DNA of 64,000 nt from Sporosarcina sp. BI001-red (lineage in GTDB: Bacteria > Bacillota > Bacilli > Bacillales_A > Planococcaceae): NCBI RefSeq assembly GCF_003384035.1, contig NZ_QQAK01000012.1:186001-250000 (forward strand), read 5' to 3'. Below are positions 27,415 through 45,576 of the stretch, in pieces. Positions within the stretch are counted from its first letter, which is position 1. The number at the start of each line of letters is the position of its first letter. The translations under genes and the position numbers were made by a program. The notes under the pieces are model-generated. The model made no database searches, was not told where the DNA came from, and was given only the letters and a program-made list of their open reading frames with translations.

Positions 27415-27478
27415 ACTTCCATGTAGCTTGAAAAAGTGGTAGACTGGACAACAGCTCAAAAAGAAGCAGGTGTTGAAT

Positions 27479-28462
27479 ATGATTGGTAGAAATGATCCGT
27501 GCCCGTGCGGCAGCGGAAAGAAATATAAGAAGTGCTGTGCAGGTAAAGAAGAACTGACAGTAGAAGTCGTGCAAGCTGAAGAATTGGAACGTGTTTTACA
27601 ATCGTTTTATGATGAATATCCAAAACAAAAAGACTTTGATGATTATCGAAAGTTCGCTATTCAATGGAAACTTCCCCTATCTAAAGCCTATTCGGAAGAA
27701 ATGATCGAGGCTATTGCGCTAGACGAGTTCTTTTTCCATGACCGGACAGATATTTGGGAAGGATTTGTGCGCAAGCAATTGAAGAAGATCGTTCGCCCTT
27801 CCGTTATCAAGGTTCTTGAAAGCTGGTCGGTCCCACAAACACTTCTAGGACAAGTTGTTAAGTCAGAGGACTCTTATTTAACTGTGTATGATCGGTTAAA
27901 TAATCAGACCGTTTTGTTACGCAGAGAGTCTGAGAAACCAGTTCCTGAAGACGTTCATCTTTGGTGCTTTACTTTACCAGATGGAGTGGATGGAGTTCTA
28001 GCAGTCTCGACACTAATCTTTTTCCCAGTCGATCAAAGTTCTGTGTTTGATGAATTTGTGACTGAGTTTAGCAACGTCGATCAAGATTCTGAAACGTACA
28101 TGAAAAACCACTCAGTTACCTTATGGGAAAAGTTATCGGAAAATGGATACAAAGGGGAAGAGTTCACTGATTTTGAACAAGGTGTCCTCGCAAGGATTTC
28201 CTCGTTTTTAGAAGCGAACGATCGCAAATCGGATGAGCTCCTGGAACTGATCGAGGATTATTTAGTAGAGGAACAGCCAAATGCCCGCAAGGATGTCGCG
28301 ATTGCAGCTGGTGCAATCCGTTATGGACAAGAACACGCGTTATTTAAAACCCTTGAGCTCACAGTGAAAGCAATTGCCGATGAATTCGGGGTATCTCCAT
28401 CCTCGCTGAATCGCTATTACAACGGAATCACGGATTACGCAAAATTGAAAACGAACGCATAA
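27479..28462 (+). CDS. SEC-C motif protein
   Basis: Encodes 327 residues. The N-terminus IGRNDPCPCGSGKKYKKCC is a SEC-C zinc-binding motif like that at the end of SecA. The remaining 300 residues are helix-rich with no recognised enzyme motif, ending in a helix-turn-helix-like segment (VKAIADEFGVSPSSLNRYYN). SEC-C is a small metal-binding adaptor module in bacteria, so a protein- or ribosome-binding role is likely (inference). ATG 27479 chosen; in-frame GTG 27470 is an alternative. A strong terminator follows. Confidence 0.8.
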   Translation: MIGRNDPCPCGSGKKYKKCCAGKEELTVEVVQAEELERVLQSFYDEYPKQKDFDDYRKFAIQWKLPLSKAYSEEMIEAIALDEFFFHDRTDIWEGFVRKQLKKIVRPSVIKVLESWSVPQTLLGQVVKSEDSYLTVYDRLNNQTVLLRRESEKPVPEDVHLWCFTLPDGVDGVLAVSTLIFFPVDQSSVFDEFVTEFSNVDQDSETYMKNHSVTLWEKLSENGYKGEEFTDFEQGVLARISSFLEANDRKSDELLELIEDYLVEEQPNARKDVAIAAGAIRYGQEHALFKTLELTVKAIADEFGVSPSSLNRYYNGITDYAKLKTNA

Positions 28463-28471
28463 ACAAATGTA

Positions 28472-28501
28472 CCCCCTGCTCAATTTTGAGCAGGGGGTTT
28501 T
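28472..28501 (+). terminator. Intrinsic terminator of the SEC-C gene
   Basis: CCCCCTGCTCAA pairs perfectly with TTGAGCAGGGGG, then TTTTCGTTT. Confidence 0.93.
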
Positions 28502-28540: not shown

Positions 28541-28860
28541 GAAAGTGATTGTAAACTGTGGGGAGTGATTATAAAACTTGGATGGTGATTGTAAACCTTG
28601 GAAAGTGATCATAAACCTCTGGAAGTGATCATAAATCTTGGGAAGTGCTCATAAAACTTGAAAATTGCTCATAAATCTCTGAAAGTGCTCATAAAACTTG
28701 GAAAGTGATCATAAATCTCTGAAAGTGCTCATAAACCCTGGAAAGCGCTCATAAACCTCTGGAAGTGATCATAAACCTCAAGAAGTGATCATAAAACTCT
28801 GAAAGTGCTCATAAACCTGAAGAAGCGCACATAAACCATAAAAAAACCTCATAAGTTATT
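28541..28860. repeat. Array of 16 tandem 20-bp units, exact period, non-coding
   Basis: Sixteen consecutive 20-base units run without one insertion or deletion. The core GTGMTCATAAA (M is A or C) starts at 28545 and recurs at every twentieth base; the last unit is decayed. The remaining nine positions are A/G-rich before the core and usually CCTTG or CCTCT after it. Early units have GATTGTAAA or GATTATAAA. Because 20 is not a multiple of three and each unit holds ATAA, every frame meets stops, so the array is not coding. It lies between the terminators of two converging genes. Confidence 0.95.
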
Positions 28861-29037
28861 GGAAATCACAACGATGAAGGCAGCTATTGAGTAGTATCAC
28901 GATAAGAATCGGCACTTCAAGAAAACTAATCAAAAGTTTGATACAATCCAGCAAAGTTCAAGGGATTAATTGGTAGCGCTACGCTTTTTTATTGCACAGG
29001 TCATGCTCCACCGTTCAGATCGACTTCATGCACTGCA

Positions 29038-29197
29038 CAAAGCGCTCATAAAATTTGAAAAGTGATCATAAACTATGAAACTCGCTCATAAATCTTGAAA
29101 AGTGATCATATTTCACAAAAAGCGCTCATAAACCAAGAAAAGTGCTCATAAATCACAAAATGTGCTCATAAATCCCTAAAAGTGATCATAACCCAAA
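29038..29197. repeat. Second array of eight 20-bp units, related to the first
   Basis: Eight units with the same core (GYGMTCATAAA; first core at 29042) and again an exact 20-base period. Their A-rich flank (AAAA before the core) differs from the first array, and its phase is shifted by 17 bases. A 177-base spacer (28861-29037) separates the two arrays. It contains the palindrome GTAGCGCTAC (about 28972-28981), followed by CGC and T6, and one decayed 20-base unit at 28921 that keeps the phase of array one. Confidence 0.93.
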
Positions 29198-29220: not shown

Positions 29221-29262
29221 AAAAAGCTGCTGGATATCAGTTTTCCTGACATCCAGCAGCTT
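29221..29262 (-). terminator. Terminator of the HAD hydrolase gene
   Basis: AAGCTGCTGGATaTCAG pairs with CTGAcATCCAGCAGCTT. On the minus strand T6 follows the stem. Confidence 0.9.
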
Positions 29263-29269
29263 TTCTTCT

Positions 29270-29962
29270 TCAATATACAGCTTTTGCTTTAACCCTGAAT
29301 TCATCCCAATTACTAATTTCATAAGTTGGTTTGTTTTCTGTTGGATTTTCCAAGCCATTTGGGTTATACCAACACGTGTCAATCCCAAAGTTAACGCCAC
29401 CGCGAATGTCAGAAGTAAGGGAATCCCCTGTCATCAAAACACGGGACTTATCTGTTACCCCAAGACGATCCATTGCCTCTTGGAAAATTTCAGGACGTGG
29501 CTTTTGGAAGCCGGTTTCGTCAGAGGACACAATCGTTTCAAAGCGATTATTCAACGAAGAACAAGCAACTCGAGCAATCTGAGCTTTGATGAAACCATTC
29601 GTTACAATTGCAAGACGTACATCGCCTAAGCTGTCTAACATATCGATGACGCCATCTATTAGATGAGCTTCTTTACCAAGCAATGTTAAATAAGTTTCAG
29701 AGAAGCTTAAAGGATCAAGCTCAATACCGAACTTGTCAAACAATTGACGGAAACGACTTACATTCAATTCTTCCATAGTCGTTGTGCCTTCTTCCAATTG
29801 TCTCCAAAGCACCTTGCAAATGGCATGATATTCTGTTCGATAACTATCGAGTCCCTCTTCGAGACCTGCCTCTATAAATGCACTACGAAATGCAATCCGC
29901 TCGCCCTTATCAAACTCTAAAAGCGTATCGTCTAAGTCGAAAAAGAAAACATCATAATTCAT
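29270..29962 (-). CDS. HAD superfamily hydrolase, YjjG/YfnB type
   Basis: Encodes 230 residues. FFFDLDDTLLEF is HAD motif I with the nucleophile and acid Asp, IVTNGF is motif II, QKPRPEIF holds the motif III Lys, and MTGDSLTSDIRGG is motif IV. A helical cap lies between motifs I and II. The best family fit is the YjjG/YfnB branch, which dephosphorylates nucleoside monophosphates including non-canonical pyrimidines. The start is ATG at 29962 after AGGTGATG; upstream in-frame codons are ignored. Confidence 0.88.
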   Translation of the reverse strand: MNYDVFFFDLDDTLLEFDKGERIAFRSAFIEAGLEEGLDSYRTEYHAICKVLWRQLEEGTTTMEELNVSRFRQLFDKFGIELDPLSFSETYLTLLGKEAHLIDGVIDMLDSLGDVRLAIVTNGFIKAQIARVACSSLNNRFETIVSSDETGFQKPRPEIFQEAMDRLGVTDKSRVLMTGDSLTSDIRGGVNFGIDTCWYNPNGLENPTENKPTYEISNWDEFRVKAKAVY

Positions 29963-30190
29963 CCAATCATCACCTGTCTGCAATTTTAGTTTTAGAAAGT
30001 ATAGCACTCATGACTGTTTTAAAACAAGCTTTCAAATTTTTGATGTACATTCTCATTAAAATTCAAGGCACGATAGAGAGGTAACTGAAATTCTGTTTTT
30101 ATCATAAGAAATAAATCATTTATTCGTTTAAGTTTCGAGCGGAAGGGTATCACAAAAAGAGAAGCAGATCATGAGGAGGTCGAAGCGATA

Positions 30191-45027: not shown

Positions 45028-45576
45028 CTATTCTTCAGAGTTCCAAACTCGTTCAACAACCTCTTGGCCCCCATCAAATTGAAGTAGGAAGATGTCAGGA
45101 TTGCTGAGCTTCTTCCAATTTACAAATCCAAAGTTTTCGTCATAATTCTTTAACGCGAGAGATAATAAATTGCCATGCGTCACAATAACAGATGTCTCTG
45201 CTTCACTCATTTTAATCTCCTCAAGCACCTCAACAACTCGTTTAGTCGCCTCTAGGCTGGATTCCCCTCCTGCGAAACTTAGTTCCATCTCCTCGAAACT
45301 AGCTTCCAATTTCTCTAACCAATCCGAGAGATCTTCGGTGCTTAGCACTCGTTCTGTCAACCGTTCATCGGTCTCAATTGTAATTCCAGTTCTTTTGGCA
45401 AAAGGGGAGATAGACTGAATCGAACGCTCGAATGGACTCGAAATAATTCGATCAAAATGGATAGTCGATAAGAACTCAGCTAACATATCAGCTTGTTGCA
45501 TGCCTAGTTCAGTCAGTGGTGCTTCAGCTTCTTGACCTTGCGCTTCACAATGCCTGATTACGTATAACTTCTTCAA
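45028..45576 (-). CDS. Histidine phosphatase / phosphoglycerate mutase family protein
   Basis: Encodes 182 residues. YVIRHCEAQG is the RHG-type motif with the phosphorylated His (Cys replaces the usual Gly), ISSPFERSIQS holds the Arg of the pocket, and VIVTHGNLL the second His. The family has phosphatase or mutase activity toward small phospho-compounds; substrate unknown. TTG 45576 follows AGGTGTGAT; a GTG three codons earlier is too close to the ribosome site. Confidence 0.85.
   Translation of the reverse strand: MKKLYVIRHCEAQGQEAEAPLTELGMQQADMLAEFLSTIHFDRIISSPFERSIQSISPFAKRTGITIETDERLTERVLSTEDLSDWLEKLEASFEEMELSFAGGESSLEATKRVVEVLEEIKMSEAETSVIVTHGNLLSLALKNYDENFGFVNWKKLSNPDIFLLQFDGGQEVVERVWNSEE

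Follow-up and report, generated by a model that had tools for sequence, protein, structure and literature searches.

REP and BIME elements of enterobacteria and Pseudomonas are dispersed, intergenic sequences that lie at gene 3′ ends in many copies per genome. The arrays described here resemble them in each of these respects, and both have been proposed as sites for chromosome proteins. REPs, however, are palindromic, are associated with RAYT transposases and alternate in orientation within BIMEs, whereas the present arrays are direct, non-palindromic, exactly phased and bounded at 8 units, with no transposase among the most frequent families of neighbouring genes. Plasmid iterons and par centromere repeats, which are bound cooperatively on one face, are likewise direct repeats with a spacing of about two helical turns; the present arrays differ from them in occupying dozens of chromosomal loci, at gene 3′ ends and with no replication or partition family among their most frequent neighbours. 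DNA uptake sequences (DUS/USS) show species dialects and a 3′ intergenic bias, as the arrays do, but the arrays come in sets of eight and isolated cores are hardly enriched.

Bacilli have ring-shaped octamers that wrap DNA, namely RemA and Lrp-type proteins, and Lrp/AsnC octamers and LytTR-type sites are grouped here with RemA for comparison. RemA (DUF370) forms 8-mer rings, with 16-mers possible, which are thought to wrap DNA and have sites spaced ~10 bp apart (PMC8481266). Eight units of 20 bp could correspond to 16 contacts of 10 bp, a likeness we treat as a lead only; RemA sites are poorly conserved and lie upstream of promoters, while the array core is strict and found at 3′ ends. TIGR (tigRNA) arrays consist of 8–12 bp repeats separated by 9-bp spacers, often with two alternating repeat types (PMC12045711). 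An 11-bp core followed by a 9-bp spacer recalls this layout, but here there are many arrays per genome, and their spacers drift and are not guides. A guide-array reading was rejected, as the Nop-domain Tas protein (PF01798) was detected in 0 of 15 array genomes in a search that recovered its positive controls.

No description of such arrays was found in the open-access literature. As subscription literature lay outside the search, novelty is probable rather than certain.

Results

Two phased arrays share one intergenic region

The window is a 64,000-nucleotide stretch of contig C12 in the 3.52-Mb draft genome of Sporosarcina sp. BI001-red. Its relevant features are listed in Table 1, together with arrays of other cores found at further loci.

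Table 1. Coordinates of arrays and neighbouring features. Positions are those of the window unless a contig or locus is named.
Feature	Position	Strand	Details
SEC-C motif protein gene	27470..28462	+	330 aa; upstream flank; synteny anchor
Intrinsic terminator of SEC-C gene	28471..28500	+	between SEC-C gene and array 1; terminator scan
Array 1	28545..28855	+	16 units, exact 20-bp spacing, core GTGMTCATAAA
Array 2	29042..29192	+	8 units, exact 20-bp spacing; sequence-model match C12:215040-215193
Hairpin and T tract, apparent HAD-hydrolase terminator	~29223..29265	-	read in sequence; absent from terminator-scan output
HAD-like hydrolase gene	29270..30007	-	245 aa; flank; convergent
Other-core arrays	L291:2829, L293:2839, L329:1085, L209:1159, L162:11, L128:6476		

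The preliminary description of this DNA had reported sixteen units repeating every 20 bp without an indel, and this is what we find: cores of array 1 start at 28545 + 20n, the last at 28845, with zero indels. The outermost units (the first three and the last two) are degenerate. When as many as 3 mismatches are allowed, fourteen adjacent pairs of units fit a two-unit pattern; across the whole window the same pattern has 20 matches, compared with 0 in 100 dinucleotide shuffles. TRF scored array 1 at 278 for a period of 60 and 251 for a period of 20. Position 4 of the core (M) had been described as a switch between A and C. Only these two residues occur there (in order, A A A A A C C C A C C A A C C C), but their alternation is not strict in array 1; other arrays of the family do alternate.

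Array 2, which the preliminary description overlooked, starts 186 bp beyond array 1. Its M residues read C A C A C C C A, and its last unit ends in CATAAC, as other eighth units do. Array 1 was rightly called non-coding, since no ORF of ≥80 aa covers it, and its position between terminators also stands. The terminator on the left (28471–28498) is clear; that on the right, an apparent terminator recognized from the sequence and not by the scan, is placed between array 2 and the HAD-hydrolase gene.

Other repeats were observed in and around this region. A different dispersed element, GGATTAATTGGTAGCGCTNCGCT followed by T's, occupies positions 28958–28990 and is found again at many other loci of Sporosarcina, frequently close to arrays. 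In three sister species (loci L056, L058 and L059), a 21-bp array with the core ATCGAGAAA lies between the main arrays and the HAD gene. Elsewhere in the window, positions 45267–45308 contain a 21-bp tandem repeat of two copies.

The arrays form a family in Sporosarcina and other Planococcaceae

The exact pair GTGMTCATAAA-N9-GTGMTCATAAA has 79 matches in the source genome and 0 when read backwards; allowing ≤3 mismatches, the numbers are 567 and 0. Two single-contig genomes carry 59 and 53 merged array loci each, which are lower bounds because the best candidates alone were scored. With G or C accepted at position 1, the exact core pair was present in 15 of 68 Sporosarcina species and in 0 of 193 genomes from 18 other Planococcaceae genera, and the named genome-collection matches were all from Sporosarcina. 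Relatives across the family, for which a search had been proposed at the outset, emerged with a sequence model built from 27 eight-unit arrays: it detected variant-core arrays in 54 of the 68 Sporosarcina species and in 11 of 38 genomes belonging to 8 of the 18 other genera. The model gave no match in the remaining 14 of 68 Sporosarcina genomes, so that either the system is dispensable or the core there is too different for detection.

Variant cores with the same architecture include GCGCTCATAAA, CCGATCATAAA, TGCTGATAAC, GTGCTCGTA and ACGCATAAA within Sporosarcina and GCGCATAAA, TCGCTGATAAA, GTTGCTCATAA and CGAGCATAAA in other genera. At every variant-core locus with a clear array the best self-similarity lag was 20 or 21 bp (exceptions were two weak G099 loci, one extracted at a contig start), and lags of 20, 40 and 60 were prominent over all fetched loci. 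The proposal of DNA-level phasing at two helical turns thus holds for the family, with its period of 20 or 21 bp. Further 20–21-bp arrays with other cores (TGTCCGATA, CTTGAGCG, CCGCTCATT, TTCGGGCG and ACGCATAAA; Table 1) occur in the same genomes. They are perhaps parallel dialects with putative proteins of their own, and such putative dialects within one genome would include the cores TGTCCGATA and CTTGAGCG.

Long arrays were also seen a few hundred bases or less from the ends of contigs (the starts of contigs C4, C10 and C14 in G000, and in G059), and they therefore probably break short-read assemblies. The family was not present in the phage or plasmid records of the collections searched. 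One IMG/VR match (L190:9931-9990), which comprises three copies of AAATGCCTCCGAGTGCTCAT, was set aside as a chance similarity outside the family.

Array size is centred on eight, and the eighth unit is distinct

Array size has its mode at 8 units. The median was exactly 8 in 25 of 66 independent syntenic groups and between 7 and 9 in 39 of them, and the typical element has 8 sites in ~151 bp. The final unit differs from the others in two ways: position 11 is C in 28/50 eighth units as opposed to 17/350 of units 1–7, and a 21-bp step precedes unit 8 in 18/50 cases compared with 5/300 elsewhere.

Copy number nevertheless ranges from 3 to 45 units across loci, and the window locus has 16 units where sister species G010 and G007 have 8–10. 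This variation indicates that slippage or unequal exchange also acts, around the mode of 8. Confinement to a single strain and freely varying copy number had been named as signs of a slippage-driven minisatellite; the former does not apply, and copy number does vary at some loci, around that strong mode. Isolated cores numbered 11 in 470 kb, hardly above the reversed (8 matches) and scrambled (~6 matches) controls, which identifies the array as the functional object.

Cores are conserved while spacers diverge

Arrays with matching flanks in different species formed 137 pairs, with flank identity down to ~70–75%. Divergence was measured in 31 array pairs of similar size (232 unit pairs) with both flanks matching at ~85% identity. 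Between syntenic units the GMTCATAA core diverges by 0–2.6%, as compared with 43–55% for the spacer. By position, divergence is 0% at G3, 1–3% from T5 to A10, 15–37% at positions 1, 2 and 11, and 43–55% in the middle of the spacer. Changes at M were A↔C in 58 of 58 cases among the 232 unit pairs; transitions, normally the commonest kind of change, were absent. No p-value is attached to these counts, because the unit pairs share ancestry and are not independent. The contrast between core and spacer, together with the restriction at M, argues against a neutral minisatellite, and on this comparison of sequences the core is under purifying selection, in agreement with the initial view that spacing and core are kept by selection while the sequence between cores drifts.

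Positions within the core are also coupled. Where position 2 is C, M is hardly ever A (21 units, as against 225 with C), a dependence of the kind expected of a binding site. Both bases allowed at M expose an amino group on the major-groove side, so that the restriction would be compatible with readout by a single side chain. Adjacent units differ in their A/C type in 805 of 1309 cases (602±15 by permutation), which falls short of strict alternation; in eight-unit arrays the corresponding values are 212 of 350 and 169±8.

Arrays lie at gene 3′ ends, usually beyond terminators

All but 2 of the 155 arrays lie clear of ORFs. Genes flanking arrays were convergent in 58 cases, in the same direction in 56 and divergent in 5 (n=119), as compared with 149, 603 and 151 among background pairs at the same loci (n=903; chi2 p 4e-16). 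A terminator separates the array from the gene in 52/79 cases at 3′ ends versus 6/33 at 5′ ends. The preliminary description had named convergent gene ends and distance from the origin as positions of interest: arrays were found mostly at the former, usually outside terminators, and ori-proximal enrichment was weak in two genomes (38/59, p 0.04; 33/53, p 0.10). Arrays point along the leading strand at a ratio of about 2:1, in 39/53 loci of one genome and 39/59 of another, and at convergent sites in 33/45 as judged by local GC skew.

The neighbours of arrays are diverse, unrelated housekeeping genes; the 25 commonest Pfam families among 81 array neighbours include no transposase, Rep or Par family. 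Array positions are kept between species through speciation.

Discussion

On balance, the window locus probably belongs to a chromosome-wide set of phased binding-site arrays for a putative sequence-specific protein, with a possible boundary or anchor role. Subunits of this protein would bind the 8 sites cooperatively along a single face of the helix that rotates slowly, either as a filament or by wrapping the DNA around a ring-like oligomer. "One face" is approximate, because sites 20 bp apart drift by ~34 degrees per unit at 10.5 bp per turn. The complex might then separate or anchor neighbouring transcription units, and not regulate one gene, at places where positive supercoiling builds up and polymerases collide. 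DNA binding is the better supported part of this model; the boundary function is guessed from where the arrays lie. In E. coli and yeast, positive supercoils accumulate between genes that converge (PMC8360656), so that our preferred hypothesis is a topological or insulating role.

Intrinsic curvature does not distinguish the array from shuffled sequence in a wedge model (end-to-end/contour ratio 0.871 versus 0.886, p 0.17; 0.322 for a phased A-tract as positive control). A likeness to the DnaA box frame (TG-NNN-ATAA) was set aside, as the box's central CCA is missing.

Other accounts of the arrays have to be weighed against the binding-site model. Their position near gene 3′ ends would allow read-through transcripts to carry GUGMUCAUAAA (or UUUAUGAKCAC), to be bound by protein or cut into small RNAs, and a fixed number of spaced motifs is reminiscent of ring-shaped RNA-binding proteins. 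We consider a role as RNA unlikely: the arrays usually lie beyond terminators, neither strand has a stable fold (z +0.51 and −0.56), nothing scored over the Rfam gathering score, and the two-turn spacing of DNA, kept in all dialects, is not needed by single-stranded RNA. That the arrays are, or once were, a mobile MITE- or REP-like element built from eight units, whose cores persist because a transposase uses them, is improbable. Such an element would account for the discrete size, distinct end and dispersal, and 3′ intergenic placement is typical of tolerated insertions, but positions are conserved between species, frequent neighbours include no transposase, the unit is not palindromic, plasmid and phage collections lack the family, and core conservation would not last at fixed loci without a current function. 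Clean empty sites were not found, and G008 and G022 are too diverged at the window locus for insertion ends to be defined.

The arrays might also be bound by a topoisomerase, for example gyrase, which would relax positive supercoiling on the downstream side of genes, a role proposed for E. coli BIMEs; the 151–160 bp covered by an array is close to the length that gyrase wraps. A strict 8-bp core that changes between species would, however, be unexpected for gyrase specificity, which leaves this account with little probability even though placement at convergent 3′ ends matches sites of positive supercoiling (PMC8360656). Maintenance by molecular drive, through biased transformation with uptake-like sequences, is very improbable. 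Species dialects and 3′ placement recall DUS/USS, but those are mostly single sites and not bounded arrays, and isolated array cores are hardly enriched over controls. We regard as equally remote a neutral minisatellite that spreads by slippage and is homogenized by gene conversion. Copy numbers from 3 to 45 and the existence of 40-bp higher-order copies would suit it; against it stand the divergence of spacers relative to cores, the A↔C-only changes and the size mode at 8, and gene conversion is unlikely to act in 8-bp tracts that leave the 9-bp spacers untouched.

For the Planococcaceae as a whole, we tentatively suggest a broader possibility, which we hold with less confidence than the binding-site model itself: that eight-site, two-turn-phased arrays at convergent gene ends, a lineage-specific putative oligomer that wraps or coats them and whose sequence preference coevolves with its sites, and their parallel dialects constitute a chromosome-organizing system. 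The binding-site model would imply that a whole bacterial family has an abundant DNA-binding protein with a part in shaping the chromosome or in insulating transcription units. The array could be used as bait for this putative protein, and the natural dialects would allow joint change in a DNA-binding protein and its hundreds of sites to be followed.
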